DNA of 64,000 nucleotides from an archaeon (GTDB lineage: Archaea > Aenigmatarchaeota > Aenigmatarchaeia > QMZP01 > JAFGSV01), in contig JANQNF010000016.1 of NCBI GenBank assembly GCA_028279705.1, forward strand, positions 64,001 to 128,000, written 5' to 3'. Both the position numbers and the translations under genes were made by a program. The notes under the pieces are model-generated. The model did not search any database. It saw nothing but the letters and a program-made list of their open reading frames with translations, and was not told the DNA's origin. This document shows, piece by piece, positions 37,399 through 63,291 of the stretch. Within the stretch, counting starts at the first letter, position 1; every line of letters starts with the position of its first letter.

Positions 37399-37639
37399 AG
37401 AGCCACTCAGTGAGTTGCTAGAAAAGTACGTACTCATTATGATTGAACTACAAAGGCTAAACGCTTTACTTGTTCATTACTCAGAAAGCGGCGTCAGTGC
37501 TAAGGTGGCACAGGCAGCCGACTCCATCAAGAGATTGGAACTATCTAAAAAGACAATCGCGCTAGAATTAGACCGCAGGATGCCAAATGCAGACAACCCA
37601 CCTACAGGAACAGAAGACGGCTCTAGTCCATCTTCATAA
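37385..37639 (+). CDS. Small protein, unknown
   Basis: The 84-residue protein starts in an overlap with the nuclease gene (14 bases). It is predicted as a helical hairpin (L-L-E-K-Y-V-L-I-M-I-E-L-Q-R-L, then I-K-R-L-E-L-S-K-K-T-I-A-L-E-L) with a disordered Pro/Ser tail. Its 3' end overlaps the polymerase gene by 53 bases. The close packing suggests a replication partner, but no family is recognised. Confidence 0.45.
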   Translation: MSIRKEPLSELLEKYVLIMIELQRLNALLVHYSESGVSAKVAQAADSIKRLELSKKTIALELDRRMPNADNPPTGTEDGSSPSS

Positions 37640-39353
37640 TCATTCAGACGCTTCTCTTCTAGACGGGCTCTCAAGAGTCCCCGATATTGTTGAGCGAGCG
37701 AAAGAGTTAGGCCACGAAGCTATTGCTATTACCGACCACGGTAATGTATTCAATGCATGGTCTTTCTATAAAGAAGCCAAGAAGAAAGGCATCAAGCCGA
37801 TTCTTGGTGTTGAAGCATATATCTGTAACGATATCAAAGAGAAGAATCGCAAACAGAACCACATCACCTTGTTGGCTAAGAGCTATCAGGGTCTTCGTAC
37901 TATCAACAAGCTGTTGACAATTGCCAACACCGAAGGGTTCTACTACTATCCTCGTATTGACCCTAACATCCTACTAGAAGTTAATGAAGATATCATCGTG
38001 CTGAGCGGGTGCTTGGGCGGTCTTTGGTCACAAGCTGTACTTCGTGGAGACATGCAGTACGCTTACGACCTAGCTAAGAAGTTCCGCGAGAAGTTTGGCG
38101 ATGACTTCTATATCGAGATTCAGGATTCAGGAATCGAAGACCAGAAGATTACCAAGCCGCGTCTTCGTGAGATAGCCGCAGATTTGGGCATTAAGACCGT
38201 ATGTTCTAACGATGCACATTATTCTAGACCAGAAGACGCTCTTACGCATGAGATTATTCTAACCAATGGTCAGCGTAGAAAGCTGTCTGACCCTGTTCGT
38301 GGTTATGATGATTTTAGCGGCGATGATTCATTGCCTACTCGCTGGCGTTTCGAAACTCCTGACTACTATCTCAAGTCACGCCAAGAGCTAGCTTCTGTAT
38401 ATACAGGAGATGAACTAGACAACACTGTTGAAGTTGCAGAAAAATGCAACGTAGAGTTTCCTAAGAAGACTTCGCACGTTCCAACTTTTGAGACACCAGA
38501 CGGAAGCACACCGTTCGACTATCTTCGTAAGATGTGTTGGGAGGGCTGGAAGAAGCTTGGATTAGACGATAAGGTGAATGTAGATGAATATAAAGAACGT
38601 ATGCGCAAAGAGCTTGCGGATATTGAGGATGGTGATTTGGCTAGCTATTTTCTTATTGTGTGGGATGTTTGCCGATACGCTGATATTCACGGGATTGGAC
38701 GCGGCGATGGTCGAGGCTCGGCCGTTGGCAGTCTTGTTAGCTATACTCTTTTCATTCATTCTTGTGACCCAATCACGTACAGTCTCATCTGGGAGAGGTT
38801 TTACAACAAAGCACGTAAAGGTTCAATGCCCGACATTGACCTCGACATCGAAACTGAAAGACGTGAAGAGGTTATTGAATACGTTAGAAGACGCTATGGT
38901 GAGAATAAGGTCTTCCAATTCATTACGTACGACACGTACAAGCTTAAAAACGCTATCAAAGACATTGGAAGAGTCCTTGGAATCCCTTTGGACGAATGCC
39001 AATTCATCTCGAATTGCGTTCCCTTCAAATACAAAGATTTTGACGACGCACTCGCTCAATCAGAAGATTTACGAGATTACGCAAAACAATACCCTGAGCT
39101 ATTCAGACATGTTAAGCGTGTTGAAAACGCTAAAAAAGCAAAGTCGTCTCACGCATCAGCAGTTCTTATCTGCGATGAAGATGTTATCACAAGTGGCTGC
39201 ATCCCTCTCAGTTACGATGCCAAGAACAAGAAGGTAGTAACCGGATGGGATATGTATACTCTAGATGACCACGGTTATCTAAAACTAGATGTTCTAGGAC
39301 TTAAGACAGTTAGTGTTCTAGATGAAGTAGAGAGAATTGTAAATGCAAATTAA
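37587..39353 (+). CDS. dnaE: DNA polymerase III alpha, N-terminal fragment (PHP and palm)
   Basis: The 588-residue protein matches the first half of bacterial DnaE. Residues ~12-250 are a PHP domain with H-L-H-N-H-S-D, T-D-H-G-N and S-N-D-A-H-Y, so its metal ligands look intact, unlike in E. coli DnaE. The palm has M-P-D-I-D-L-D-I near 414-421, giving two catalytic aspartates (~416, 418), and K-L-D-V-L-G-L with the third near 568. It ends 20 residues later, at the palm/fingers border. It cannot be a complete polymerase without the 40313 gene. The start has AGGA 7 bases upstream. No intein N-terminus follows. Confidence 0.95.
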   Translation: MQTTHLQEQKTALVHLHNHSDASLLDGLSRVPDIVERAKELGHEAIAITDHGNVFNAWSFYKEAKKKGIKPILGVEAYICNDIKEKNRKQNHITLLAKSYQGLRTINKLLTIANTEGFYYYPRIDPNILLEVNEDIIVLSGCLGGLWSQAVLRGDMQYAYDLAKKFREKFGDDFYIEIQDSGIEDQKITKPRLREIAADLGIKTVCSNDAHYSRPEDALTHEIILTNGQRRKLSDPVRGYDDFSGDDSLPTRWRFETPDYYLKSRQELASVYTGDELDNTVEVAEKCNVEFPKKTSHVPTFETPDGSTPFDYLRKMCWEGWKKLGLDDKVNVDEYKERMRKELADIEDGDLASYFLIVWDVCRYADIHGIGRGDGRGSAVGSLVSYTLFIHSCDPITYSLIWERFYNKARKGSMPDIDLDIETERREEVIEYVRRRYGENKVFQFITYDTYKLKNAIKDIGRVLGIPLDECQFISNCVPFKYKDFDDALAQSEDLRDYAKQYPELFRHVKRVENAKKAKSSHASAVLICDEDVITSGCIPLSYDAKNKKVVTGWDMYTLDDHGYLKLDVLGLKTVSVLDEVERIVNAN

Positions 39354-39552
39354 AAATATCATTAGAGATAGAATCACTCTTCACGTACAGAACTACTTTG
39401 AAGAAAATCATCCTGATTTTGATGACACAAATCTATCCGACGAAGAAGTGCATATGATTGCTAAAGATTTAGGACCGAAGTTGAAAGATAAAATTATGGA
39501 TGATTTGATGGAGCTACTAGGTGGTAATGAGGTGCATCCAAATGGAACTTAA
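39343..39552 (+). CDS. Small acidic protein between polymerase halves
   Basis: The 69-residue protein starts inside the end of the polymerase N-fragment gene, with an 11-base overlap. It is helical and acidic (E-E-N-H-P-D-F-D-D-T-N-L-S-D-E-E-V-H). The K-D-K-I-M-D-D-L-M-E-L-L-G-G segment near the end could pack in a coiled coil. Tight coupling with dnaE suggests it is made with the polymerase and may hold the two halves together, but that is a guess. No family recognised. Confidence 0.5.
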   Translation: MQIKNIIRDRITLHVQNYFEENHPDFDDTNLSDEEVHMIAKDLGPKLKDKIMDDLMELLGGNEVHPNGT

Positions 39553-39811
39553 ACCTAACGAACCTGAAAAGAAAGAGATTGGTATTAAGGTTCTTCGAGG
39601 GGAAGAAGAAATCCCCGTTGATGAGCTAAAGGTTATTCTCGACTTTGACGGAACAGAAGCGGAAGTGGAACTTAAAAACGCAGTAATTCGTAGTATGGTT
39701 CTAGCACAAGAGAATATCCTATTGAAGAATGCGTTGGCTCAAGCTAAGGCCATTATTACAGGTAAGGCACCACAGGCTAAGCCACAGAGGTTCTACGAAG
39801 GTGAAGAATAA
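39542..39811 (+). CDS. Small protein between polymerase halves
   Basis: I chose ATG 39542, which has GAGGTG at good spacing, over the in-frame GTG 21 bases upstream. The 89-residue product has an acidic N-terminus, two beta strands (E-I-G-I-K-V-L-R-G, V-D-E-L-K-V-I-L-D-F-D-G) and a C-terminal helix (A-Q-E-N-I-L-L-K-N-A-L-A-Q-A-K) that could be a coiled coil. It overlaps the previous gene by 11 bases. Unknown family. A polymerase accessory role is possible from context. Confidence 0.5.
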   Translation: MELKPNEPEKKEIGIKVLRGEEEIPVDELKVILDFDGTEAEVELKNAVIRSMVLAQENILLKNALAQAKAIITGKAPQAKPQRFYEGEE

Positions 39812-39812
39812 A

Positions 39813-40301
39813 GTGGCACGCGGCGGACCAATCAAGCGAAAGAAGTTTCTGTCTGATTTAAGAGACGGAAAGAAAATGGAAGAGTATGTTGCTTCCATCT
39901 ACAAAGAGAACTTCTTCCCGACTTGCGACTACATTTCCTATAACATTGGGAAAGAGTATGACATTAGCTTTTCATTTCCGCGTAAAGAAAGCATTCACGT
40001 AGAAGTGAAATACGACAAGATGGCAAATAAGACCGGCAATCTCTGTTTTGAGATGTTTGACCATAATCATGAGCCATCTGGAATCTTTGCGACCGAAGCA
40101 CACCTAATGGTCTTTGTTCTAAATAAAGAATTGATGTTCGAGTTCAAAGTTGAAGAGCTAAGACGCTTTGTGCAGCATCATGTAACTACAGGTAGGTACA
40201 GAGTATTAAAAGGTGGTGACGGCAACGCATTTGAAATGATGTTAGTGCCAATCACCGAGATTATGAAAGAAGATTTTTGTACAAGAATCGACATTACCTG
40301 A
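39813..40301 (+). CDS. PD-(D/E)XK endonuclease-like protein inserted between polymerase halves
   Basis: The start is GTG 39813, after an AAGGTG site. GTG 39801 is an alternative. The ~162-residue protein has a basic start (G-P-I-K-R-K-K) and a nuclease core: an E-Y-V-A-S-I-Y-K-E-N helix, K-E-Y-D-I-S-F (catalytic Asp near 50) and I-H-V-E-V-K-Y-D (E-x-K near 60). A long beta tail follows. This resembles phage resolvase-like or Hjc-like nucleases, and free-standing homing nucleases of this fold also exist. Its place in the polymerase break is notable. The stop lies directly before TATAAT and the ATG of the second half. Confidence 0.7.
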   Translation: MARGGPIKRKKFLSDLRDGKKMEEYVASIYKENFFPTCDYISYNIGKEYDISFSFPRKESIHVEVKYDKMANKTGNLCFEMFDHNHEPSGIFATEAHLMVFVLNKELMFEFKVEELRRFVQHHVTTGRYRVLKGGDGNAFEMMLVPITEIMKEDFCTRIDIT

Positions 40302-40307
40302 TATAAT
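40302..40307 (+). promoter_or_regulatory. Extended -10 promoter for polymerase C-terminal fragment
   Basis: TGATATAAT is a consensus extended -10 element, with TTGTAC 19 bases upstream as a weak -35. Only 5 bases separate TATAAT from ATG 40313, and no ribosome-binding site is seen, so transcription would start at or beside the start codon and give a leaderless message. Confidence 0.5.
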
Positions 40308-40312
40308 AGACT

Positions 40313-42004
40313 ATGCTAGATTTCGACACAATTCCACTGGACGACAAAAGCACCTACAACCTAATGAGTATGGGACTCACCAAAGGTATCTTTCAACTGG
40401 AAGAACACCTAGGCGAGCGTTACTCTCAAGTTGTAAAGCCCCAGAATATTGAAGATGTTGCCGACATTGTTTCAATCATCCGTCCGGGCTGTAAAGAAGC
40501 TTTTCATGTAGACGGCGAGACTTCAATGCTTGACGCCTATTGTAAGATTCGCAATGGGCAGATGGAAGAAGCTTATCTTCATGATGACCTAAAACCCATT
40601 CTGGGTAAAACACACAGCGTTCTTATCTATCAGGAGCAGATTATCGAAATCTGTCGTGACATGGCGGGTATGTCTCTAGAAGACGGAGACATGGTACGCA
40701 AAGCGATGGGTAAGAAACTTCCGTCTGAAATGAAGAAGTGGCAGGATGTTTTTGTTAAAGGTTGCATAGAGCAGGGTTATGAAGAAGAACTCGGCTTGAA
40801 GATGTGGGACTGGATTGAAAAAGCCGCAGGCTATCTATTCAATAAGTCGCACGCGGTGGCTTACGCTAAGATTGCATATAAGACCGCCTATGCTAAAACC
40901 AACCATCCAACTGCATTCTATTCAGCGATGCTGAAGTTTGCTGACAAGAAGACAGATACCTATGAAGAAATGCTTGAGTTAATCAATGACGCTAAGCTTT
41001 TCGGCATTAGAGTGATTCCACCGGTAATTAAAGAGGCCAACCCTGACTTTCACATTCTAAACAAGAGCACTATCGCTTTTGGTATTGAGTACCTAAAGGG
41101 TGTTGGGCATTCTTCTATGGCAGCAATTGAGCGCCTGCGTGGCGTTTCAAGCTGGACAGACTTCCTAATTATGGTGGATAGATACAAAGTCGACAAGACT
41201 TCTTGTGAAGCACTTATTAAGTCTGGCGTTCTAGATGAGCTTAATTTACCTAGAACATTCATGCTTGCCGAGTACGAGCTATTTCGCGCATTAACTCGCA
41301 ACGAGCAGGCAGTAGTCCTATCTTTGATTGGCCGAAAGTTACACCCACAGATTCTAATTGATATCGATAAATCTGATTTCGAACAGAAGCGTACAGTCAC
41401 CAAATATGTCAAGTTGCACAAGACTGGCGTCTTTGATATTTGTGGGCGCTACGGCCCTGTCAGAAGTATTCCTTTGCCTAGAAACGACATTAACTTCAAA
41501 GAAGAGACTTTCGACCTAGAACACGCCATCAGGCATTTAGTAAGTTGCGAGATTCCCACATCTAGGCGCAGACAGAAGCTTATGCAGCTTCTACTCGAAT
41601 ACACAGATAAAGAACCGTTCGGCATCAATAAGGGTCTTCATCAGGCGTGGGAAAAGTTCTACTTTGGCATTCCACTCACAGTTCAGGATAAGGGCCTAGT
41701 CGTAACTAGTGATGTGACACCCTGCATCGAAGTCATCAATATGGCCCCAGATTCCAACGTGACTATTGCTGGAATTATCGAGAGAGTAAACTATGCCAAA
41801 GTTAAGCGCGGCGAGTCTAAAGGTAAAACAATGGCTTTCCTAGATATTGCTGATGGAAGCTACATGCTAAAGGGTGTTTTGGTCTTCTCGAAAGCTTTTG
41901 AGAAGTACGGCGAGAATATCCAAAAGGGTATGGCGGTCACCATCCGTGGTAGAAAAATGGAAGATAGCAACTCAATTATGGCATATTCTGTGGAAAGATT
42001 GTAG
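40313..42004 (+). CDS. DNA polymerase III alpha, C-terminal fragment (fingers, HhH, OB)
   Basis: The 563-residue protein continues DnaE exactly where the first fragment stops: I-P-L-D-D-K-S-T-Y-N-L-M, then G-I-F-Q-L-E and V-S-I-I-R-P-G. The fingers follow (Y-Q-E-Q-I-I-E-I, R-K-A-M-G-K-K, then L-F-N-K-S-H-A-V-A-Y), then a G-V-G-H helix-hairpin-helix and a final OB fold (V-T-I-A-G-I-I-E-R-V). The F-N-K-S-H site, where cyanobacterial DnaE has a split intein, is uninterrupted. The tau-binding C-terminal domain is absent. It holds no catalytic aspartate triad, so it must join the N-fragment to act. No Shine-Dalgarno site is seen. Confidence 0.95.
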   Translation: MLDFDTIPLDDKSTYNLMSMGLTKGIFQLEEHLGERYSQVVKPQNIEDVADIVSIIRPGCKEAFHVDGETSMLDAYCKIRNGQMEEAYLHDDLKPILGKTHSVLIYQEQIIEICRDMAGMSLEDGDMVRKAMGKKLPSEMKKWQDVFVKGCIEQGYEEELGLKMWDWIEKAAGYLFNKSHAVAYAKIAYKTAYAKTNHPTAFYSAMLKFADKKTDTYEEMLELINDAKLFGIRVIPPVIKEANPDFHILNKSTIAFGIEYLKGVGHSSMAAIERLRGVSSWTDFLIMVDRYKVDKTSCEALIKSGVLDELNLPRTFMLAEYELFRALTRNEQAVVLSLIGRKLHPQILIDIDKSDFEQKRTVTKYVKLHKTGVFDICGRYGPVRSIPLPRNDINFKEETFDLEHAIRHLVSCEIPTSRRRQKLMQLLLEYTDKEPFGINKGLHQAWEKFYFGIPLTVQDKGLVVTSDVTPCIEVINMAPDSNVTIAGIIERVNYAKVKRGESKGKTMAFLDIADGSYMLKGVLVFSKAFEKYGENIQKGMAVTIRGRKMEDSNSIMAYSVERL

Positions 42005-42075: not shown

Positions 42076-42459
42076 ATGAATTTCAACAGTTGCACACTTG
42101 TTGGTCGTATGGTTCGTGACCCTGAAATCAGGGAAGTTGGCGGAACTAACGTTGTAATGTTTACTGTAGCTTCAAACCGAAGCTTCAAGAAGAAAGATGG
42201 CGAAAAGGCGGAAAAGACCCTGTTCATGGACTGTGAGCTATGGGGACCAGCCGCAAGTATCATCAATGACCGTGGCGTAAAGGGTACCACAATCCTAGTC
42301 AGCGGACCCATTGAGCAGGATACATTCCAGACGCAGGATGGTAGCAAGCGTACTCGCTACAAGCTGCGTGTAGACTTTTTCCAGTTCGGTCAGGGCTCAG
42401 TAGTCCCAGCCGAGACTGGTAATGCCGCAGATGCGGGTGGCGATGACATTCCATTCTAA
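42076..42459 (+). CDS. ssb: Single-stranded DNA-binding protein
   Basis: The 127-residue protein has the OB-fold start M-N-F-N-S-C-T-L-V-G-R-M-V-R-D-P-E-I-R, V-V-M-F-T-V-A-S-N-R-S, L-F-M-D-C-E-L-W-G and K-R-T-R-Y-K-L-R-V-D. It ends in the acidic tip D-D-I-P-F, which in bacterial SSBs docks partner proteins. It is shorter than E. coli SSB because the linker is reduced. It coats single-stranded DNA at the phage fork. An AGGAG site is present, the palindrome at 42026 may regulate it, and its 3' end overlaps the sigma factor gene by 17 bases. Confidence 0.95.
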   Translation: MNFNSCTLVGRMVRDPEIREVGGTNVVMFTVASNRSFKKKDGEKAEKTLFMDCELWGPAASIINDRGVKGTTILVSGPIEQDTFQTQDGSKRTRYKLRVDFFQFGQGSVVPAETGNAADAGGDDIPF

Positions 42460-42946
42460 TTCGGAATTATACAACAAATACGACAAGACGGTTAGAGCAG
42501 TAGTAAATACGCTACTGCTCAGCCGTCGTTTAGTTTCCCTACCTATTGATAGGGATGACCTATACCAAGTGGGGTGGGTGGCACTTATTCAATGCCTGCC
42601 GCACTTCGATGAAACTCGCGGCGTAAAGTTCGAAACTTATGCGAGTAGAGTTATTGTAAACGCTGTTAATAGAGAGATTGGCCTACATCTTGCTCGACGC
42701 ATGGCCCACACCCACACTGACATAGCTGGAGAAGACTGTTGGGTTGACGAGCGTAGTCGAATGATGGCAGAGCTAATTGATGTTGTTGGCGACAAACTAT
42801 CTGTTAGGGAGCGAGAGGTTTTCTGGAAGAGGTTCATTGACGATAAAACCTTTGAAGAAATTGGCGTAGAAAAAGGATTTTCACGAGAAACTGCTAGAAA
42901 GATTTATCACCACTCTCTAGAAAAAATCAAGGAAGCAGTTGCATGA
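42443..42946 (+). CDS. Phage RNA polymerase sigma factor
   Basis: I place the start at ATG 42443, preceded by GGGTGG. ATG 42422 is in frame but lies deeper in ssb. The 167-residue protein has sigma region 2 (D-D-L-Y-Q-V-G-W-V-A-L-I-Q-C-L-P-x-F-D, F-E-T-Y-A-S-R-V-I-V-N-A-V-N-R) at ~33-78 and region 4 (L-S-V-R-E-R-E-V-F-W-K-R-F, E-E-I-G-V-x-x-G-F-S-R-E-T-A-R-K-I) at ~113-165. It lacks regions 1 and 3 and would redirect host RNA polymerase, probably to late genes. Its -10 and -35 targets are unknown. The stop overlaps the next gene (ATGA). Confidence 0.9.
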   Translation: MTFHSNSELYNKYDKTVRAVVNTLLLSRRLVSLPIDRDDLYQVGWVALIQCLPHFDETRGVKFETYASRVIVNAVNREIGLHLARRMAHTHTDIAGEDCWVDERSRMMAELIDVVGDKLSVREREVFWKRFIDDKTFEEIGVEKGFSRETARKIYHHSLEKIKEAVA

Positions 42947-45618
42947 GCAAGAAAGTAAAGGTAAAGGATTTAGGTCGTAAGCCTAAGATTCTTTTTGTCA
43001 ATGAGGCCAGCTTTTTGCGTACGGGATTCTCTACGTATGGTTGGCAGGTTCTAAAGAGGCTTCAAGCTACTGGCAGATATGAGCTAGTAGAACTAGCTTC
43101 TTATGCTAAGACTTCTGACCCGCGTTGGAAAGACCCTAAGTTTGGAATCACTTGGAAATACTACGGTGCAATGCCGGAAGATAATGACGCCGAAGCAGTC
43201 AGGGCATATCAGCAGAATTATCACTTCTACCAGTTCGGCAAGTCTATTTTCGATGATGTTCTAATCAAAGAAAAGCCTGATATCGTCATTGATATCAGAG
43301 ACAGGTGGATGGCTTCAGAATGGCAGCTTAAGTCGCCATACAGGAAGTATTTCACCTATATCTATATGCCGTGTGTGGACTCACATCCACCGCAGCCTGA
43401 TTGGGTCAAAGATTACAAAGAGACAGACTACATTCTCGGGTACTCACACTACGCTAAGCATGTTCTCGAACGAGAAGGTGTTAAGTGTTGGGATGTTACC
43501 AATCCCGGAGTAGACCGTAATGTATTCAACACAGATAAAACTCGTAAAGAAGCTTTATCACGTTGGGGTTTCCGTGAGAGCGTAAAGCCCATTCTCGGCG
43601 TTTTTAGAAATCAAAAGCGCAAGCTTCTACCAGAGATGATTTATTCTTATGTCATCCTAAAGAACAAGTATCCTGAAGCGTATAAGGATACCTGCTTGTG
43701 GTTCCATACTTCATGGCCAGATGTTGGTTTCAACATCGATATCGTCATGGAATGGGCTATGCAGGGCCGCGTACCAAGAGTAGACCAAAAAGGGCGCATC
43801 AAGGAAAAGAAGTACAAGATTCCGATTCGTCCAAGCGATGTATATTTCTCATACATTTGCCATAAGTGCGGTCATACTTTTGTAAGCGCATACATTCCTA
43901 AAGGTAAAGACGCCCAAGTTAAAAACAACGAGACTGGTGAAACACGTATCATTAAGATGGATTGCGCTACTGTGCCATGCCAGAAATGTGGTGAGTTCAC
44001 CGCTCGAATGCCTAATACTCAAAAGGGCTTCTATCCAGAAGACTTCGCTGATGTATACAGGGCGGCGTGGGTACACGTACAGCCAGCAATTGCCGGTGCG
44101 GACGAAATGCCCACCAATGAAGCTAAAGCTTGCGGTACTCCTATTATTGCTCCCGTACACGCTGCTATGCATGAAAAGGTAGAGAAAACCCACTTCTGTC
44201 CTGACGACAGGTGGAAGGGTGGTCTACCTATTGAAATCGCTTCTATGTACACCGAAGCGGAGACAATGCAGCAGCGAGCGTACTTCTGCAAAGATAGTTT
44301 AGCTAAGCAGCTAAATAAGATTCTCACACAACCTGCTCTAAGAGCTAAGCTAAGCAAAGAAGCTGAAGAGGTAACAAAGAAGTATTACGATTGGGATGAC
44401 ATTGCTGAAAAGTGGGATAGCCTACTCTGGAACACTGTAGAAATTAACACCGAGAGTAGCTGGGATGCTCCGGCGACACTTCGTGAATATGGTGATTTCC
44501 AAGTTCCAACCGAACAGGAAATGTCAGACCCCGAATTCATCAAGTGGTGCTATCAGCACTTCTTGCATGTTGAAGAACCAGATGCGCCCGGCTTCCAGTA
44601 TTGGATGGGTGATATCGGTAAAGGCAGGGCAAGAGATAACATCGTTGCATACTTTAAGCAGCAAGCCGATGAGCATAACGCTAAAGAACTTAAGCGCATT
44701 GGTAAGTCTGGCGCGGCAAAGGGCGGTAAGAGTATCACCATTTCTGACTACATTGACAAAGAAGATACATTCCGCATCTTAGTGGTAATGCCGGGCACCG
44801 CTGGTGACCTACACCTACTAACAGGCTCTTTGAAAGCACTTCATAAGAAGTTTAATCGTAAAGAAAAGTGGGGTCTATACCTATCTTGTGATGAAAGATT
44901 CTTTGATGTTGTTAAAAACCTACCGTTCATCAAGAACCTAATTCCGTACGGAAACACACTAGATAATGCTAAGGCTGTTGAAAAGAGCGGTCTGTTCAAC
45001 ATCTGCTACACACCACACATTATTACACAGCGTTTTGAACACTATGTGCATAATGGTTATGGCAAGCATCTAATTAATGCCTATGCAGATATGTGCGATG
45101 TGGAACCAGAAACTCCAGAAATCTGGCTAGACCCCGTTGATGGCCTTCCAGCTAAGTTTTATGCTCTACATGCCAAGACTTCTATGAATAGTAAAGACTG
45201 GCCTTTGGAGCGATTCAAGAGCATCGCTCGTATGTTCCCCGACGAACAGTTTGTTCAGGTAGGAGGCCCAAGTGACCCAAACATTGATGAACCTAACGTC
45301 ATTGATTTGCGTGGCAAGACTACATTTAACCAGATGGCTTACGTCATTCGCAAGTCAGACGGAATTATTGGTCTGGACAGCATTGCCCTACACCTAGCAT
45401 CCACACTAGGGACTAGAAGTGTAGGTATCTTCGCAGCTACCTATCCACAGGTATGTGGTCCAAAGGATATGCATGGCGGTCTTATTGTGATGCCTAATCA
45501 GCGTCCCGATACATGTAAGTCTCCATGTCATATGGCAGAATGTCCATCTAAGAATGACCCCTGCATCACACGTGTTTCTGTGAGGCACGTAGCAGCGGCT
45601 ATGGAGAAAGCGTTTTAA
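42943..45618 (+). CDS. Multidomain glycosyltransferase: GT4-like, zinc ribbon, DUF4214-like, GT9-like
   Basis: This 891-residue protein fuses four parts. Residues ~10-500 are a GT-B fold of GT4 type, with N-E-A-S-F-L-R-T-G-F-S-T-Y and the donor motif M-P-T-N-E-A-K-A-C-G-T-P-I-I-A-P. A zinc ribbon is inserted at ~303-350 (C-H-K-C and C-Q-K-C). Residues ~525-575 resemble DUF4214 (E-F-I-K-W-C-Y-Q-H-F-L, F-Q-Y-W-M-G-D-I-G-K-G). Residues ~610-890 resemble GT9 heptosyltransferases (M-P-G-T-A-G-D, G-L-D-S-I-A-L-H-L-A). It probably adds two sugars in sequence. It opens the glycosylation locus. Confidence 0.85.
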   Translation: MSKKVKVKDLGRKPKILFVNEASFLRTGFSTYGWQVLKRLQATGRYELVELASYAKTSDPRWKDPKFGITWKYYGAMPEDNDAEAVRAYQQNYHFYQFGKSIFDDVLIKEKPDIVIDIRDRWMASEWQLKSPYRKYFTYIYMPCVDSHPPQPDWVKDYKETDYILGYSHYAKHVLEREGVKCWDVTNPGVDRNVFNTDKTRKEALSRWGFRESVKPILGVFRNQKRKLLPEMIYSYVILKNKYPEAYKDTCLWFHTSWPDVGFNIDIVMEWAMQGRVPRVDQKGRIKEKKYKIPIRPSDVYFSYICHKCGHTFVSAYIPKGKDAQVKNNETGETRIIKMDCATVPCQKCGEFTARMPNTQKGFYPEDFADVYRAAWVHVQPAIAGADEMPTNEAKACGTPIIAPVHAAMHEKVEKTHFCPDDRWKGGLPIEIASMYTEAETMQQRAYFCKDSLAKQLNKILTQPALRAKLSKEAEEVTKKYYDWDDIAEKWDSLLWNTVEINTESSWDAPATLREYGDFQVPTEQEMSDPEFIKWCYQHFLHVEEPDAPGFQYWMGDIGKGRARDNIVAYFKQQADEHNAKELKRIGKSGAAKGGKSITISDYIDKEDTFRILVVMPGTAGDLHLLTGSLKALHKKFNRKEKWGLYLSCDERFFDVVKNLPFIKNLIPYGNTLDNAKAVEKSGLFNICYTPHIITQRFEHYVHNGYGKHLINAYADMCDVEPETPEIWLDPVDGLPAKFYALHAKTSMNSKDWPLERFKSIARMFPDEQFVQVGGPSDPNIDEPNVIDLRGKTTFNQMAYVIRKSDGIIGLDSIALHLASTLGTRSVGIFAATYPQVCGPKDMHGGLIVMPNQRPDTCKSPCHMAECPSKNDPCITRVSVRHVAAAMEKAF

Positions 45619-45951
45619 ATGAGTTTAACATTCGACGAATTACGACAGGCGAATGTACAGAGATGCATTAATGACTTTAATCACCCTCTTGACGAGTGGA
45701 GTCTAACTGACTGGTGCTGCGCTATGGCAGGTGAAGTTGGTGAAGCTTGTAACTTTGCCAAGAAGATTAGACGTGATTTAGAAGTTGATAAAGAGAATAA
45801 AGATTTAAAAGCAGAGCTAGCCAAAGAACTAGCTGATGTTGTTACATACGTAGACCTTATCGCGGCAAGCCTAGGAGTTGACCTAGGTGAAGTTATCAGA
45901 CAGAAGTTTAACGAAGTCTCGGACCGTCGCGGTGTAAAGACTAAGCTATAA
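45619..45951 (+). CDS. MazG-like nucleotide pyrophosphohydrolase
   Basis: The 110-residue all-helical protein has the single-domain MazG motif: M-A-G-E-V-G-E-A-C-N-F then K-E-L-A-D-V-V-T-Y-V-D, whose acidic residues bind magnesium. Family members hydrolyse NTPs or dNTPs to monophosphates, and phage versions may lower ppGpp or clear non-standard dNTPs. It starts one base after the glycosyltransferase stop. A separate role from glycosylation is likely, as phages often scatter such genes. Confidence 0.88.
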   Translation: MSLTFDELRQANVQRCINDFNHPLDEWSLTDWCCAMAGEVGEACNFAKKIRRDLEVDKENKDLKAELAKELADVVTYVDLIAASLGVDLGEVIRQKFNEVSDRRGVKTKL

Positions 45952-45959
45952 GGTGTAAG

Positions 45960-46223
45960 ATGCAGAATATTAGAAGTAGAAATTTCTATGATGTATTTCA
46001 GCGTGAACTTGGTAAAGCCGAAAGATTAGGTTTGACCGAAGTTCTCCTAACCGTTCGTGACAAACAGCAAAAGGGTTGGGAATATCTAGAAGTTGAAGAG
46101 TCTCTAGATAGAATTAAGTCTGAAGGACACAGTATTAAAACTGAGCGTCATGATAGCAATAATGAACACGGGTTCTTCGGTTATTTCATCATCATTTCTG
46201 TGAGCAAGAGTAATGCAAGCTAA
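45960..46223 (+). CDS. Small protein, unknown
   Basis: The 87-residue basic protein has a GGTGTAAG start region. It has a single alpha/beta pattern: F-Y-D-V-F-Q-R-E-L-G-K-A-E-R-L, then E-V-L-L-T-V-R-D, and a C-terminal G-Y-F-I-I-I-S-V strand. Size and order suggest a ferredoxin-like small domain. It overlaps the next glycosyltransferase by 11 bases. No family recognised. Confidence 0.5.
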   Translation: MQNIRSRNFYDVFQRELGKAERLGLTEVLLTVRDKQQKGWEYLEVEESLDRIKSEGHSIKTERHDSNNEHGFFGYFIIISVSKSNAS

Positions 46224-48171
46224 GTTACCAACCTTTGGTGCATACCTAATCCTATATAATGCAGAAGCTTCTCGCTACCCGTGGCGCGAGTGTATCCATA
46301 ACGCACTTACATTCTGTGACCAAGTATACATTCTAGAGTGTAACTCACAGGATGATACTTATGAGAAGATTCTTGAAGAATTTGGCGATGTGGCGAATAT
46401 CACACTTAAGCGTTCGGAAACCGAATGGGATATGGATGATACCACCGTTGTCGGAAAGAAGAAGCAAGAAGCCCGCGAAATGGTGCGCACAGACTATTGT
46501 GTATACCTAGACGCAGATGAGATTCTTGTTGTTAAGAGCAGAGAAGTTCTTATGGACTTGATTCTTCATCATCCATCAGCAGAGGTGTTCTCGCTTCCAT
46601 ACGTAACTTTCTTCGGTAACCCATACGAGATTGGTAATTTCAAAGACGCAGAAAATTTCTGGCGTTGGAAGGTTTTTGCCAACAAGCCACACATCGGCCA
46701 TGGCGTACATGGAAACGCGCGCAAGTATGATGAGAACGGCAAGATGTATCTAGATAAAACCATTTCTGATGGTTGTGAAATCATCAATATGGAAACACTA
46801 GAAGTAATGCCGTCTCTGATGTACATGCCAGTACCATACGCTCAAGCTGGTGAAAAGTACAGAGAAGCACCTGAAGACCCACAGATGAAGAAAGGTATTG
46901 GTCTTGTATTCTCTGAAATGGTTAATGATTTCCCACTAATCTGCCTACATTATGGTTGGGTAAACTTCGAAGATAAGGCTCGTAATGGAATCGAATACTG
47001 GACTAAGACAAAGAACTTCCGCGAAGGCAATGTCGAACATAGTAGGCTTTTCGACGGTCTAGAAGAAGGTAAGATTCAGGATAAGATTACTCAGTGGGAA
47101 CAGCTTGATACAATCCAACTCCGAGTAAAAGAACATCCTGAAATCATGCGACCACGCCTAGCTCCACAGCTTAAGCCAAAGGTCTTGAATGTTGCTTTGA
47201 CTTCTGATGGTCCTTTTGGCGTACCTAAGTGGGGTAAGCAACTAGAAGCAGCACTTGCAGATTACGATGTACAGAACTTTGCTTTTACTGATTATAACAC
47301 TGTGGCTCCACCTAACGCACTAGAGTTCCACAAAGCTGAATCGATGATTAAGCACATTAAGTCTATCGAAGCTGATAAGAACGCCCTAGTGGTATTCGGT
47401 GATGGATTCTGGGCAGCTACATATCCCGGACCAGCAAAGGTAGTCTCTGTCGTACACGGCCTTTGGCACCACCCTCTAAGAGAGAAGTGGGGAGACGATG
47501 GTCTACTAGAGCAACGTAAGCAGCTATTCCAATACCAGATTGAATACTTCAAGAAAGCTAAAGAGATGGGTCACACATTGGCTTGTGTTAGCCCATTTAT
47601 CGCTAACATCTTAAAAGAAGAGCATGGTGTTGATACCGTTGTAATTCCTAACGCTGTTGACCTAGATTTCTGGGACAGCGTTACCATCAAGAGTATGGAA
47701 GCCGAAAGGCCGCTCATTCTCCACGGTATCACTTCACATAACAAGGGTTTGGACATTCTTGAACAGATTGAGAACCACCCACTACTTAAAGATAGGTTTG
47801 ACATTGCCAGCATCGACGAAGTGTCCGAGCACTGTCAGGTGCCGAAAGCCGTCGCTTTTAAGGCGGCTGACGTCGCGTTTCTGCCAACGAAGTGGGAAGC
47901 TTCTAGCTATCTGCTTCTTGAGTGCTTGGCTAACAATCTACCCGTTGTCGCTCATCGAGCGGGTATCCTCAATTGTAAGGATTTACACCGCTTGGATGAT
48001 ATCGGCATCATCCTTGATGATTATGATGTGGACAAGTTCGCAGAGGCTCTCGTTGAAGCATACGAAAATCGTATGAACTATAAGATGGGTCGTATCTTCC
48101 TACAAGAGAACGGTATGACTAAAGAACATTGGGACGACAGTATTAAGAAACTCGTCTACGGAGTTATGTAA
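46213..48171 (+). CDS. Fused GT2-like and GT4-like glycosyltransferase
   Basis: Of 652 residues, ~1-310 resemble a GT2 (GT-A) enzyme: A-Y-L-I-L-Y-N-A-E-A, D-Q-V-Y-I-L-E-C-N-S-Q-D-D-T, and the Y-L-D-A-D-E metal-binding motif near 100-105. Residues ~320-650 are a GT4-like GT-B enzyme: S-D-G-P-F-G-V-P-K-W-G, V-V-H-G-L-W-H, V-I-P-N-A-V-D and S-S-Y-L-L-L-E-C-L-A-N-N-L-P-V-V-A-H. The two active sites in one chain suggest ordered sugar addition. The C-terminal motif E-x7-E is largely kept. Its stop overlaps the next small gene. Confidence 0.88.
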   Translation: MQAKLPTFGAYLILYNAEASRYPWRECIHNALTFCDQVYILECNSQDDTYEKILEEFGDVANITLKRSETEWDMDDTTVVGKKKQEAREMVRTDYCVYLDADEILVVKSREVLMDLILHHPSAEVFSLPYVTFFGNPYEIGNFKDAENFWRWKVFANKPHIGHGVHGNARKYDENGKMYLDKTISDGCEIINMETLEVMPSLMYMPVPYAQAGEKYREAPEDPQMKKGIGLVFSEMVNDFPLICLHYGWVNFEDKARNGIEYWTKTKNFREGNVEHSRLFDGLEEGKIQDKITQWEQLDTIQLRVKEHPEIMRPRLAPQLKPKVLNVALTSDGPFGVPKWGKQLEAALADYDVQNFAFTDYNTVAPPNALEFHKAESMIKHIKSIEADKNALVVFGDGFWAATYPGPAKVVSVVHGLWHHPLREKWGDDGLLEQRKQLFQYQIEYFKKAKEMGHTLACVSPFIANILKEEHGVDTVVIPNAVDLDFWDSVTIKSMEAERPLILHGITSHNKGLDILEQIENHPLLKDRFDIASIDEVSEHCQVPKAVAFKAADVAFLPTKWEASSYLLLECLANNLPVVAHRAGILNCKDLHRLDDIGIILDDYDVDKFAEALVEAYENRMNYKMGRIFLQENGMTKEHWDDSIKKLVYGVM

Positions 48172-53514: not shown

Positions 53515-54188
53515 GAGAAGACGTATACGTCGGTAAGTTCAAAGTAGTATATCGCCCTGATATTCCCGGTGACTACACAGTTATCGAAGAACATTGTAAG
53601 GGTAGCTCCTACTCGGACCATCTAAATTTAGAGGAAACCGACCGCTGGTTAGACCTAGGTTCTCACATCGGTTGCTTTGCGCTAGATATCGCTCGTACAG
53701 TTGATTATGTACATTGCGTAGAAGCTGAACATTCTAATGTACGCCTAGCTCTTAGAAATGTTTCTCTGAATCCCTACGCTAATGTAGTTACTCAGCACGC
53801 AGCGGTTGTACCCAGCACCTTCCCTGACGACCACATTACATTATATCTGGCTAAGAAGTCTCATAGTAACTCTTTGCATCCAGAAATGTATAATGTCCAG
53901 CATGGTCCAGCGGGAACTGTCAAAGTTCCAGTCGTTCATGCGAACGAGTTGATTGAGAAGCACAACATCAACAAGATTAAGCTAGACATTGAAGGAGCCG
54001 AATATGATGTAGTTCCTGATATCGACTGGTCTAAGATTGACGAGTTTATCATGGAAGCGCATACACAGGTTCCCAAGGCTGACGTAACTGGACTATTCAA
54101 CTTCTTCGAAGAGCAGGGATTTTCAGTGTTGCAGACTACCGCTGGTGTTCCGCAACCTAATTTCCTACTTCATGGAGTTAGAGAATAA
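53511..54188 (+). CDS. FkbM-family methyltransferase
   Basis: The start is ATG 53511 in an ATGA overlap, giving 225 residues. SAM-binding motif I is W-L-D-L-G-S-H-I-G-C-F-A near 43-54, followed by V-H-C-V-E-A-E-H-S-N (acidic D/E post-strand) and K-L-D-I-E-G-A-E-Y-D near 155-165, the FkbM signature. These enzymes methylate sugar hydroxyls, often in glycan chains. Here it would cap or modify the glycan made by the surrounding transferases. The stop overlaps the next start. Confidence 0.9.
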   Translation: MREDVYVGKFKVVYRPDIPGDYTVIEEHCKGSSYSDHLNLEETDRWLDLGSHIGCFALDIARTVDYVHCVEAEHSNVRLALRNVSLNPYANVVTQHAAVVPSTFPDDHITLYLAKKSHSNSLHPEMYNVQHGPAGTVKVPVVHANELIEKHNINKIKLDIEGAEYDVVPDIDWSKIDEFIMEAHTQVPKADVTGLFNFFEEQGFSVLQTTAGVPQPNFLLHGVRE

Positions 54189-55207
54189 TGGAACACTTTA
54201 CACCTTATTTCAAAAGAGATATAAAAGATATTCCGCCAGCTAGAACCGACTTACTTGACATGGTCGGTGACCGAAAGCTAATTGTTCTTGGTCCCTTTAC
54301 TGGTGGTTACGGACACTTCTTTTGCCAATACTTAACAGCATTGGCAGGTATTCGTGAAGCCAACCCCGACGCATACATTATCGCATCGGCGGCACATGTG
54401 TTTGCGCACTATTGTCTACGTTTTGCCGATGCGTTTTACGGCTTCAAGCACAACTGGGCTCACATCAAGCCCGCGGCCAGCGTATCAGACGGCTTAAAGG
54501 TAAACCCTGACCTTACACGTTTTCTCGACTACGTTGAGCGTGATTTCCGTTCACCGGACACACTCTTAAACACTTTGCGTGATAACGATGCGTGCCACAA
54601 TCTGTACATTGGTCAATTCGGCAGCGCCATGCCGATGCTCCGCGAGAAGCCATACAACCCAGATTCTAACCTAATCATTGTCTGGGGTAGGATGAAGAAG
54701 GGCGCTGACTGGCGCAATGGGAACGCTAAACAGTGGCGCGAAACGATTAGGCACCTACAGGGTCGCGGATTCGACATTGCCGTTGCAGGTGCTCGTGGTT
54801 CGTCTATGTTCTTCGAGGATATGGACAACATTCGGGACCTCACCGACTTTGACGATGTGAAGCGCGGTGCCATCATTAATGAAGCCCTACAGGAAGCACG
54901 CTGTGCCTTAGTTGACATGAGCGGCACCATGTGCGAATGTTACCTAGTAGGCTGCCCACTCCTAACCTACAATGCAGACCCAAGGCACATCGTAGTCATT
55001 CCGCGCCGCAATATCTTTGGCGTACGTGAAGACTTCATGGTTCCTAAGCCTTGGCCGCACTGGCAGAAGAATCCGATGGTCGATGGCGACATGTCATTCA
55101 TGCCGGACTGGCTAGTTGCGGTAGACAAGTTCGTGGACGGGTGCGCGACAGAGCCGCCCTTTAAGAGAGAGGTATCGACTAGTCGTGGCGTCTTTAAACC
55201 CTTCTGA
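54188..55207 (+). CDS. GT-B glycosyltransferase-like protein (GT9-like)
   Basis: The 339-residue protein has a GT-B layout: G-P-F-T-G-G-Y-G-H-F-F near 35, a long helical first domain, then L-I-I-V-W-G-R-M-K-K-G-A-D-W near 160 and A-R-C-A-L-V-D-M-S-G-T-M-C-E near 245. This resembles the heptosyltransferase donor domain G-L-D-T/S region, but the motif is diverged. Because it sits between methyltransferase and UDP-galactopyranose mutase, a glycosyl transfer role is likely. It overlaps the NADAR gene by 23 bases. Confidence 0.6.
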   Translation: MEHFTPYFKRDIKDIPPARTDLLDMVGDRKLIVLGPFTGGYGHFFCQYLTALAGIREANPDAYIIASAAHVFAHYCLRFADAFYGFKHNWAHIKPAASVSDGLKVNPDLTRFLDYVERDFRSPDTLLNTLRDNDACHNLYIGQFGSAMPMLREKPYNPDSNLIIVWGRMKKGADWRNGNAKQWRETIRHLQGRGFDIAVAGARGSSMFFEDMDNIRDLTDFDDVKRGAIINEALQEARCALVDMSGTMCECYLVGCPLLTYNADPRHIVVIPRRNIFGVREDFMVPKPWPHWQKNPMVDGDMSFMPDWLVAVDKFVDGCATEPPFKREVSTSRGVFKPF

Positions 55208-55655
55208 CCCTAAGTGGGATAACGCTATTCTATTCTGTGGCAGAGATGCTGCTAAATATCCGTGGCTATCAAACTTTTATGTTCACCCGCTCATTGATTC
55301 AGATGCGCGCGAGTGGCGTACGGCAGAACACTATTATCAGGCCCTTAAGTTTGAAGATAAGCTACTGCAAGAAGAGATTAGGAAAGTTAGAACACCTAAG
55401 CAGGCTAAAGAGCTAGCGCATCTAATGGCACCAGCCAGTGGCCGCAAAGATTGGCTGGAAGTTAGAATTAACATGATGCGCATTGTGTTGCGAAGAAAAT
55501 TTGCTGACCCTGAGTTGCGTGACAAACTAGAAAATACGGGTGGCAAATGGCTGGTTGAACACCGCCTAAAGGATGGTTTCTGGGGGTGCGGTCCACGCAT
55601 GACAGGACACAACTGGCTAGGCAAACTGTTGATGGAGATTAGAGATGAAGTCTGA
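55185..55655 (+). CDS. NADAR (YbiA-like) domain protein
   Basis: The 156-residue protein, GTG start at 55185, has the full NADAR pattern: L-S-N-F-Y-V near 28, W-R-T-A-E-H-Y-Y-Q-A-L-K-F near 44, F-A-D-P-E-L-R-D-K-L and the C-terminal D-G-F-W-G-C-G-P with G-H-N-W-L-G-K-L-L. Family members act on N-glycosidic bonds of ADP-ribose-like substrates, and some remove ADP-ribose from guanine in DNA. In a phage it could reverse a host defence or clear an NAD-derived signal. That role is inferred. It starts inside the preceding gene and overlaps glf by 11 bases. Confidence 0.9.
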   Translation: MASLNPSDPKWDNAILFCGRDAAKYPWLSNFYVHPLIDSDAREWRTAEHYYQALKFEDKLLQEEIRKVRTPKQAKELAHLMAPASGRKDWLEVRINMMRIVLRRKFADPELRDKLENTGGKWLVEHRLKDGFWGCGPRMTGHNWLGKLLMEIRDEV

Positions 55656-56799
55656 AGTACATATCATCGGAGCAGGTTTGGCAGGATGTTGTCTTGCGCG
55701 CGTTGCCGCGGAGAATGATTGTAAGGTAATTCTGTATGAAGCCGCCCGCCATGTCGGAGGTATCTGCCGCGAGAAGGAAAAGGAAGGTATTAGATACCAT
55801 CCACTTGGTCCGCATGTATTTCATAGTCATCTGAAAGAGCGCACAGACTTCTTCAAGCGTTTCACAGACGTCGTTAAGTACGTACAGCGTACCAAGACGC
55901 TAGTGGACGTGAACGGCAAGACAGGCTACGTACCGTGGCCACCAACTCAAGAGTCTATCGAGAAGCTAGATGAGTTAGAGCCGGGCATCAAGCAGAAGAT
56001 TCTAGACGAAATAGCCGCTCGTCCCGATGAACTCGACATGACTAACTTCGAGACTTGCGTTCGAACACTAGTTGGCGACACACTCTATGAGCTATTCATT
56101 AAGAACTATACAGAGAAGTTCTGGAAGGTACCAGCGACTACACTATCTTCCGAGTGGGCTCCAAAGAGAATGGATGTACGTCCCAACTATGATGATAGGG
56201 TCTTCAAAGACCAGATTCAGTTCATGCCGGATTATAATAAGTTCTTCGAGAACGTGATTGACCATCCGAACATCGAAGTGCGTTACAAGCACAGTATGAA
56301 GAAAGTAGACGCCTATCGTCTCGCGGAAGAGGGTCATATTGTAGTTTGGACCGGCAACCTAGATAAGCTGCGTGATACTGATAAGTTGAAATACACCGGG
56401 CCGACCATCCACGTCGAGTTGCATAAGCAGGAGCACTATCAGGACTTCCCAGTTGTCAACTATCCTAACACCACGCATGATTATCACCGCATCACGGAGT
56501 ACAAGAAGATGACCGGTCAGGAGCACCCATGGACCGTCATCACTAAAGAGTATCCGGGCCGTTCGCGTATGTACCCCATCAACACTAAAGAGACCGCGGC
56601 GGAGCGAGAGAGGCTGGTATTAGAATTAGCCCGAGAAGGCAAAGTAATCCCATACGGTAGACTAGGCCTCTACCGCTACCTAGACATGCATATCGTAGTA
56701 GGTATGGGACTTTATTTTGGGACTATTGTCGGAAAGTGGGACAAACTTTCTGAGGATGAAAGAGTTGATGCATGTAGAAAACTCTTAGAAATTGAATAG
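55645..56799 (+). CDS. glf: UDP-galactopyranose mutase
   Basis: The 384-residue flavoenzyme has the Rossmann loop H-I-I-G-A-G-L-A-G-C near 6-15, an E-A-A-R-H-V-G-G-I-C strand, G-P-H-V-F-H near 51-56, and E-F-P-like K-E-Y-P-G-R near 300 plus a G-R-L-G-L-Y-R-Y-L-D-M-H C-terminal motif. It converts UDP-galactopyranose to UDP-galactofuranose, the donor of Galf. Galf is found in surface glycans of many bacteria. In this phage it supports a Galf-containing virion or lipid-linked glycan. Overlaps NADAR by 11 bases. Confidence 0.95.
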   Translation: MKSEVHIIGAGLAGCCLARVAAENDCKVILYEAARHVGGICREKEKEGIRYHPLGPHVFHSHLKERTDFFKRFTDVVKYVQRTKTLVDVNGKTGYVPWPPTQESIEKLDELEPGIKQKILDEIAARPDELDMTNFETCVRTLVGDTLYELFIKNYTEKFWKVPATTLSSEWAPKRMDVRPNYDDRVFKDQIQFMPDYNKFFENVIDHPNIEVRYKHSMKKVDAYRLAEEGHIVVWTGNLDKLRDTDKLKYTGPTIHVELHKQEHYQDFPVVNYPNTTHDYHRITEYKKMTGQEHPWTVITKEYPGRSRMYPINTKETAAERERLVLELAREGKVIPYGRLGLYRYLDMHIVVGMGLYFGTIVGKWDKLSEDERVDACRKLLEIE

Positions 56800-57980: not shown

Positions 57981-58245
57981 TCTCTACAAGGAACGATACG
58001 ATGTTTATATCGGGCGTGCTGGTAAAGGAAAAGATGGGTACTTTGGAAACCCATTTAGACTAGAAACAGGAGAAGCGCGCGGTGGTACTATTGAAAGATA
58101 TCGTAAATGGTTTTATACTCGCCTACAGAACGACAAAGAATTTCGAAAAAGAATTGAAAGCCTTAGAGGTAAAACTCTCGGCTGCTTCTGTAAACCAAAA
58201 CCCTGCCATGGGGACGTAATTGTGGAGTATTTGAATGGCGCGTAA
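57934..58245 (+). CDS. DUF4326 domain protein
   Basis: The start is ATG 57934, after AAGGAAG. The 103-residue protein has the family's pattern: V-V-N-L-Y-K-E-R-Y-D-V-Y-I-G-R, Y-F-G-N-P-F, I-E-R-Y-R-K-W-F-Y, L-R-G-K-T-L-G-C-F-C-K-P-K-P-C-H-G-D-V-I. The C-F-C-x-P-x-x-C-H cluster may bind metal. The family is common in phages and its biochemical role is not known to me. It starts inside dut and overlaps the ClpP-like gene, so it is tightly linked to nucleotide genes. Confidence 0.88.
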   Translation: MTQSEVKAGSEARVVNLYKERYDVYIGRAGKGKDGYFGNPFRLETGEARGGTIERYRKWFYTRLQNDKEFRKRIESLRGKTLGCFCKPKPCHGDVIVEYLNGA

Positions 58246-61921: not shown

Positions 61922-62287
61922 ATGAGAAGCCTAATCACAATAGCTATGGTATTGGTGCTATTTTTCGGTGGCCTGAGCATCATGGATGCAAGAGCACAAG
62001 AAGATGCGATTGGTGGCGGTGTTGTCAAGACAGTTAAAACTAAGATGACACCCGCACAGTTTATCGCTAGGTTTGTAGAACTTGGAAATCAAGATGGCAC
62101 ACTGAGAGGCCCGTTTGATATTATCGTTGGCACTACAGATAAGGGCGCTGGCGGCATGAAGTATTCAAATGTTCCTTTTGCTATTCTGCTTGGCGATGGT
62201 AGCATTGCTTTTCCAAATGGTGATAAGGGTAAAGGCGGCAAAGCAGTCCTAGTCCTCACATCTAATTGGACTTTGAGAACTAAGTAA
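61922..62287 (+). CDS. Secreted protein, unknown
   Basis: The start is ATG 61922 with AGGAG upstream. The 121-residue protein has a Sec signal: M-R-S, hydrophobic L-I-T-I-A-M-V-L-V-L-F-F-G-G, and a probable signal peptidase site after A-R-A near residue 24. The mature region is small and beta-rich (F-D-I-I-V-G-T-T, G-K-A-V-L-V-L-T-S-N-W) without known catalytic residues. Export suggests action in the envelope, for example in blocking other phages. The stop overlaps the next ATG. Confidence 0.65.
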   Translation: MRSLITIAMVLVLFFGGLSIMDARAQEDAIGGGVVKTVKTKMTPAQFIARFVELGNQDGTLRGPFDIIVGTTDKGAGGMKYSNVPFAILLGDGSIAFPNGDKGKGGKAVLVLTSNWTLRTK

Positions 62288-63291
62288 TGAAAACAGCACT
62301 AATTACTGGCGCTAGCGGACAAGACGCCTACTACCTAGCACTTCTTCTTCTAGAGAAGGGGTATAGGGTGGTAGCAACTCAGCGTCGTTCTGCGCGCGCT
62401 TATTCTAGCACAGTTGAAGAATTGTGCAAGAACGACAACTACATTCTAGAATGGGGTGATGTAACTGATATGTCGGCCATTCTGAGAGTTGTTAAACAAT
62501 ATCAGCCGGATGAGTTTTACCATCTGGCGGCACAATCGGAAGTTGGCACAAGCTTTCACGAGCCTCTAAGCACCATCAGTATTACAGGAAAAGGTGCTGC
62601 AATTTGCTTAGAAGCTGTACGTATCGGAGCGCCAGAATGCAAGTTCTACTTTGCAGGTAGTTCAGAGCAGTACGGTGACGCTCACGGTGGTCTACCCACT
62701 AATGAAGAATCACCAATGCTCCCGCGCAGTCCCTATGCATGTGCTAAGCTTATGGGGTATAACCTAACTCGTGTCTATCGTGAATCATATGGAATGTTTG
62801 CATGTGCGGGCGTTCTATTTAATCATGAATCACCAGAGCGCAAGCCATACTTTGTTACTCGTAAGATTACTCACGGCGTAGCTCGTATCGTAGCTGGCAT
62901 TGACAAGCATATTGAACTCGGTAATCTGGACTCTGGTCGAGATTGGGGTCATTCTGCTGACTACATGCGTGCTGCGTGGATGATGCTACAAGCCGACAAG
63001 CCTGATGACTACGTAGTAGCAATGGGTACATTTAACACAATTGAAGACTTACTTAGGATTGCTTTTGCAGAGGCAGGACTATCATCATGGGAGAATCCAG
63101 ATGGATGGAAGCCTTATATCAAACAGAATCCTAAGTGGATGCGCCCACACGACGTTACTCGTCTAATCGGAGATTCATCTAAAATTAGAAAGAGTCTTGG
63201 CTGGCAGCCAGACTATACTTTCGAAAAGATGATTAGAGAGATGGTTCAGCATGACCTTAGACTTCTTAAGTGCGCTAGCAATAGCAATTAG
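62287..63291 (+). CDS. gmd: GDP-mannose 4,6-dehydratase
   Basis: The 334-residue SDR enzyme has N-terminal I-T-G-A-S-G-Q-D-A-Y-Y-L-A, E-W-G-D-V-T-D, Y-H-L-A-A-Q-S, a catalytic S-S-E-Q-Y-G near 125 (where Gmd has S-E-L-Y-G), S-P-Y-A-C-A-K with the Y-x-x-x-K pair near 148-152, and F-N-H-E-S-P-E-R-K-P-Y-F-V-T-R-K-I. It converts GDP-mannose to GDP-4-keto-6-deoxymannose, the precursor of fucose, rhamnose or perosamine. No next enzyme for that sugar is found in the window, so the host must provide it or the gene lies further on. Confidence 0.93.
   Translation: MKTALITGASGQDAYYLALLLLEKGYRVVATQRRSARAYSSTVEELCKNDNYILEWGDVTDMSAILRVVKQYQPDEFYHLAAQSEVGTSFHEPLSTISITGKGAAICLEAVRIGAPECKFYFAGSSEQYGDAHGGLPTNEESPMLPRSPYACAKLMGYNLTRVYRESYGMFACAGVLFNHESPERKPYFVTRKITHGVARIVAGIDKHIELGNLDSGRDWGHSADYMRAAWMMLQADKPDDYVVAMGTFNTIEDLLRIAFAEAGLSSWENPDGWKPYIKQNPKWMRPHDVTRLIGDSSKIRKSLGWQPDYTFEKMIREMVQHDLRLLKCASNSN

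Follow-up and report, generated by a model that had tools for sequence, protein, structure and literature searches.

The window, a 64,000-nucleotide stretch, comprises bases 64001 to 128000 of contig C74, which is 175,863 bp long and lies within a 1.9-Mb bin. Because the first and last 99 bases of the contig are identical (L020 1-99 and L023 7765-7863), C74 probably represents an entire phage genome of about 175.8 kb that is circular or circularly permuted. Family searches showed that it carries DnaB, primase, DnaE, RecA, RNR and ThyX, together with a terminase large subunit. The nearest relatives of the bin are mostly 0.5 to 1.5 Mb in size, and those of the same genus are 0.7 to 0.9 Mb, a range that resembles CPR genomes; since the bin is about twice as large as its congeners, the assignment of the phage to the bin organism as its host is doubtful.

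The gene under study occupies positions 42943..45618 on the plus strand, as do all its parts, and is a single ATG frame without interruption that encodes an 891-amino-acid protein with the architecture GT4[ribbon]-DUF4214-GT9. The GT4 N-terminal lobe (residues 1-205; 42943..43557) was assigned from the phrog_2170 match, the match to the solved structure 3oy2 and per-domain identity. The C-terminal lobe is formed by residues 206-299 (43558..43839), which include R222-N-Q-x-R-K227, and residues 359-503 (44017..44451), which include G385...E393, with the ribbon insertion (residues 300-358; 43840..44016) between the two. A DUF4214 segment (residues 519-573; 44497..44661), a variable linker (residues 581-606; 44683..44760) and a GT9 domain (residues 607-891; 44761..45615) complete the chain.

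The first-pass annotation, made from the sequence alone, had described a four-part chain with a zinc ribbon inside the first GT-B domain and a DUF4214-like segment between the two enzymes. Domain searches and a full-length homologue with 70% identity, L001 (IMGVR_UViG_3300037264_000217), confirmed this architecture: the ribbon cysteines lie inside the C-terminal half of GT4, and Pfam PF13946 places the DUF4214 segment between GT4 and GT9. An assembly artefact was ruled out as the source of the architecture, since L001 contains all four parts in one ORF. The identity between the window protein and L001 was highest in the GT4 N-terminal lobe (79%), followed by the GT9 domain (69-70%), the ribbon (64%), the DUF4214 segment (52%) and the linker (45%). 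The dN values were 0.17 to 0.43 over the named domains, with the GT4 N-terminal lobe the lowest, and 0.68 in the linker, and dS was saturated in all parts except the DUF4214 segment (about 3.9). Low dN with dS at or near saturation indicates purifying selection on every named part of the protein.

We then analyzed the GT4 half. Its first 500 or so residues match the phrog_2170 glycosyltransferase (E 1.5e-17), the Pfam GT4 match of the window protein is below the cut-offs (E 0.005), and the best solved structure for the profile of the GT4 family is 3oy2, chlorovirus B736L (E 4e-20). The R222-N-Q-x-R-K227 motif, which is invariant across the family and intact in the window protein, is probably the donor-phosphate site. 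The EX7E motif is characteristic of GT4 enzymes without being universal among them. In the window protein and L001 the first Glu of this motif is replaced by Gly (G385) while the second (E393) is kept, whereas both are present in all other family members examined. Because of G385 we refer to the first part as GT4-like, and the loss of the first Glu suggests that the GT4 half of this lineage may have altered or weakened activity. The profile alignment places the ribbon insertion between residues 231 and 260 of 3oy2. In GT4 (PimA-type) enzymes, this stretch corresponds to the loop that follows strand three of the C-lobe, close to the nucleobase.

The ribbon of the window protein has the cysteine pattern C306-x2-C309 and C346-x2-C349 (C-x2-C-x36-C-x2-C), with codons at 43858, 43867, 43978 and 43987. 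A Pfam search of the window protein gave no Zn_ribbon_8 match at the ribbon. Among 41 aligned family members, 19 have a Zn_ribbon_8 match at E 0.1 or better (best E 9.7e-6), and the matches checked individually, in L034 and L035, fall on the ribbon segment; that in L034 scores 18.0 bits, under the 34.4-bit cut-off. The ribbon's own best profile matches are to the nucleic-acid-type ribbons RPB9 and eL43, and these are weak (E 0.09 and worse).

Relatives of the GT4 half were searched for in viral contigs. Single-protein scans found one relative, and the large family emerged from a DNA pattern for YICxxCGHTF followed by a scan with a six-row alignment. The pattern retrieved GT4 proteins of 543 amino acids with the ribbon at the same place (L033-L035); its other hits were a 69-amino-acid small protein with a ribbon (L032), which was set aside, and L036, where no ORF was found. 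The alignment-based scan of IMG/VR yielded 270 relatives, of which the best-scoring 80, a top-scoring and not a random sample, were kept. The family members (L033-L035 and L038-L117) are 539 to 597 amino acids long when complete, and all 41 that were aligned match phrog_2170. They resemble the window protein in the position of the ribbon, the tail and the DnaE-SSB surroundings, and differ from it in having no GT9, an intact EX7E and a ribbon loop 22 residues shorter. Isolate phages gave weak matches, the closest being S-CBS4 (27% identity) and S-EIVl (20%).

The ribbon had been thought peculiar to this chain, and this view was refuted: ribbon-bearing GT4 proteins without GT9 are common in uncultured phages, so the ribbon is a trait of a large phage family. 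The suggestion that a GT4-GT9 fusion is unusual was borne out, with the fusion found only in the window protein and L001 in a sample built on the best-scoring 80 of 270 relatives. Judged from these alignments, the traits of the window lineage itself are the GT9 fusion, the 22 additional ribbon residues, G385 and a DUF4214 score above the cut-off. Bacterial and archaeal genomes were scanned twice with short exact peptide seeds, which can miss distant relatives, and no encoded relative was found. A literature search retrieved no paper joining DUF4214 and glycosyltransferase, and one combining phage, glycosyltransferase and zinc ribbon returned no title describing such a protein. A CPR protein with DUF4214 (L017) had no recognisable glycosyltransferase when its sequence was read.

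The ribbon was compared in 75 distinct rows. The loop is absent from the S-CBS4 row and present in the other 74, where it is 73 residues long in the window protein and L001 and 51 in every other relative. All four cysteines are present in 44 of the 74 rows; in 29 rows T, S or A stands in place of each of the last three, and a single row is intermediate (CCCT). Independent change at the same column frequencies would be expected to give about 53 mixed rows as opposed to the one observed, a contrast that is inflated by the relatedness of the rows. A tree from which the ribbon was left out still requires at least four switches of the cysteine state. Since the four cysteines are kept or lost as a set, with repeated switches, they form one predicted metal site where they are present. 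As 29 relatives are predicted to have no such site, the loop appears able to do without metal, and metal appears inessential for the fold or the chemistry. The all-or-none switch represents a natural experiment on the role of a metal ribbon in a GT-B enzyme.

The DUF4214 match (PF13946) in the window protein has an E value of 8e-6 over residues 519-573 and scores 26.3 bits against a cut-off of 23.2; the score in L001 is 27.6 bits. Because the C-terminal tail of the family aligns to this segment (hhalign E 1.6e-5, probability 79%), the DUF4214 segment probably represents the tail shared by the family rather than a domain acquired separately. The GT9 match (PF01075, Glyco_transf_9) has an E value of 7e-15 over residues 736-849 and scores 55.4 bits in the window protein and 60.2 bits in L001, against a cut-off of 22. 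Residues D622 (in a GD motif), K751, D812 and H817 align with D13, K192, D261 and H266 of the heptosyltransferase WaaC. With these counterparts of the WaaC catalytic residues intact, the GT9 half is probably active. The overall identity between WaaC and the window GT9 is only 13%, and the scores against the NCBIfam heptosyltransferase I, II and III equivalogs (26.6 to 34.8 bits) are far under their cut-offs (134.6 to 185.3). The C-terminal cysteine motif of the GT9 domain, C858-x3-C-x4-C-x6-C874 (45514..45564), was considered as a second special metal site and rejected, as an ordinary GT9 protein (L006) has the same spacing.

We also examined the gene neighbourhood. Upstream of the gene on the plus strand are an SSB gene (42076..42459) and a sigma-70-like factor gene (42422..42946), which overlaps the start of the glycosyltransferase gene by 4 bases. 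In 82 loci searched with the neighbours of three members, the second part of DnaE was found in 80, SSB in 80 and the sigma factor in 49, and a second and a third GT4 in 77 and 68, respectively; some of the gaps are contig ends, and sigma factors that have diverged may have escaped the search. The GT4 family is located just downstream of DnaE and SSB in nearly all loci, often with the sigma factor between, and usually two more GT4 genes follow. The ribbon-GT4 proteins form a glycosyltransferase module that is common in uncultured phages and linked to DnaE and SSB through gene order, and they point to a widespread, uncharacterised virus-encoded glycosylation system. DnaE is encoded by two genes (588 and 563 amino acids) at 37587-42004 of the window, and is likewise split in L001 and L010.

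Downstream, a MazG-like gene (45619-45951) separates the gene from the next large one, a two-domain GT2-GT4 glycosyltransferase gene (46213..48171, plus strand); its product likewise joins two enzymes in one chain, with GT2 ahead of GT4. The gene after the homologue in L001 starts like this enzyme, and no match to the usual second and third GT4 proteins of the family loci was found there. The window also carries plus-strand genes for UDP-galactopyranose mutase (55645..56799; PF03275, E 2e-41) and GDP-mannose 4,6-dehydratase (62287..63291; PF16363, E 9e-105). These belong, by family assignment, to a sugar cassette with several glycosyltransferases and an FkbM methyltransferase, and beyond the window the cassette includes DegT aminotransferase, epimerase and UDP-glucose/GDP-mannose dehydrogenase genes.

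Several known systems share single features with the window protein. B736L is likewise a viral GT-B enzyme, from a virus that also encodes GDP-mannose 4,6-dehydratase, and its preferred ligand is GDP-mannose (PMC4691112); unlike the window protein, it has no ribbon, DUF4214 or GT9, and has 28 residues where the window protein has about 97. The Synechococcus phage protein S-CBS4 gp014 (phrog_2170) is about 27% identical over the GT4 part but has no ribbon, and its gene lies between portal and head genes. The protein glycosyltransferase TibC, an autotransporter heptosyltransferase of the BAHT type, has a four-cysteine metal finger inserted in the GT-B C-lobe (PMC4358343), and is a precedent for the first-pass suggestion that the ribbon may recognise a protein acceptor. 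The TibC metal is iron rather than zinc, the enzyme is a dodecamer with a single heptosyltransferase domain, and its cysteines (339, 342, 358 and 370) are spaced unlike those of either the ribbon or the GT9 tail of the window protein (PMC4358343). In PBCV-1, A111/114R is a viral chain in which several glycosyltransferase domains build one glycan; it differs in having three domains with other predicted activities and in belonging to a eukaryotic virus, and its published abstract mentions no ribbon (PMC7826918). For mycobacteriophages, capsid glycans and virion glycosylation are described in work cited in PMC11256854.

Taken together, these results make it reasonably probable that the window protein is a bifunctional transferase that adds two sugars of a phage-encoded glycan, with zinc as the most likely metal of the Cys4 ribbon and a virion or host-surface acceptor. 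We infer that this cytoplasmic enzyme, made by a phage with its own glycan cassette, would transfer one sugar through its GT4 half, probably from a GDP-sugar. The GT9 half, joined to it through the DUF4214-like tail and a flexible linker, would then extend the glycan by a second sugar, so that the fusion predicts two consecutive sugars within it. The ribbon, in the loop that connects strand three to helix three of the GT4 C-lobe, would sit beside the nucleotide site, most likely bind one zinc ion and shape the loop as a docking surface for an acceptor or partner. The glycan would probably end on a virion or host-surface acceptor. A GDP-sugar donor is plausible for the GT4 half because B736L prefers GDP-mannose and the phage encodes GDP-mannose 4,6-dehydratase. 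The first-pass annotation had proposed activity tests with UDP-Galf and GDP-deoxyhexoses; the phage does encode UDP-galactopyranose mutase, but nothing links Galf to the GT4 or the GT9 half.

The cassette could instead serve to remodel the surface polysaccharide of the infected host, for instance to keep out competing phages, with the glycan not placed on the virion. We regard this as possible, if clearly the less probable course. The genes for UDP-glucose/GDP-mannose dehydrogenase, DegT and epimerase are of a kind typical for surface polysaccharide loci, GT9 enzymes are classically builders of the LPS core, and glycan clusters of jumbo cyanophages have been interpreted as altering host polysaccharide (PMC7824862). 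On the other hand, among the parts annotated we noticed no polymerase, flippase or ligase that would belong to a polysaccharide pathway, and the S-CBS4 relative sits among structural genes. As to the target of the glycan, the data favor neither the virion nor the host polysaccharide over the other.

It is unlikely that catalysis is due to the GT9 half only, with the GT4 half reduced to a degenerate scaffold. The lost first Glu of EX7E and the sub-threshold Pfam GT4 scores would fit such a scaffold, but dN is lower in the GT4 N-terminal lobe than in any other part, and both the R222-K227 motif and the second Glu are intact.

Virion glycosylation leaves the position of the family beside DnaE and SSB unexplained. 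That position, directly downstream of DnaE, SSB and sigma factor genes (80, 80 and 49 of 82 loci), together with the nucleic-acid-type best matches of the ribbon, would suit a family whose glycosylation target is phage DNA or a protein of replication or transcription, the ribbon serving to dock the enzyme on nucleic acid or on a partner. We consider this improbable. No ThyA-type hydroxymethylase was found on C74, which has ThyX, and the only PF00303 match of the bin is on C76; a search run without a positive control gave no Tet/JBP match. Moreover, two more GT4 genes lie downstream of most relatives, and the L035 and L010 loci continue with GT2-type or sugar-nucleotide genes, as in a glycan pathway. 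DNA is a less likely acceptor than a virion or host glycan, although it provides the sole idea that makes use of the replication neighbourhood. Equally improbable is a broader version, in which the phage GT4 ribbon has alternated many times between a zinc-binding and a zinc-free form and docks the enzyme on the replication or transcription machinery or on DNA, the window lineage having become a two-sugar enzyme through the GT9 fusion. Paired ribosomal proteins with zinc-binding and zinc-free forms provide a parallel for such switching.

There is little to recommend a metal-free ribbon with cysteines that are disulfide-bonded or have a purely structural role: of the 20 cysteines in the window protein, 18 are conserved in L001 anyway, but the CxxC pairs coincide with zinc-ribbon matches, no sign of export was noticed in the window protein, and the cysteines were lost in concert in several lineages with the loop length retained.

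Other features were observed in the cassettes and around them. In the window, a ClpP-like protease gene (58235-58822) adjoins ribonucleotide reductase, and a NADAR/YbiA-like protein, recognized by eye, is encoded at 55185-55655, between UDP-galactopyranose mutase and an unassigned gene at 54188-55207 that is perhaps a glycosyltransferase. A cassette protein starting with CxxC...C...C (SCKDCIF...GC), without a Pfam match, is encoded at L035 7783-8598 and L010 9061-9900 and is possibly a second metal-binding, glycosylation-related protein. In another phage contig (L013 3037-5345), an apparent UDP-galactopyranose mutase gene directly adjoins a GT9-like gene, hinting that the mutase and GT9 are a recurrent pairing.
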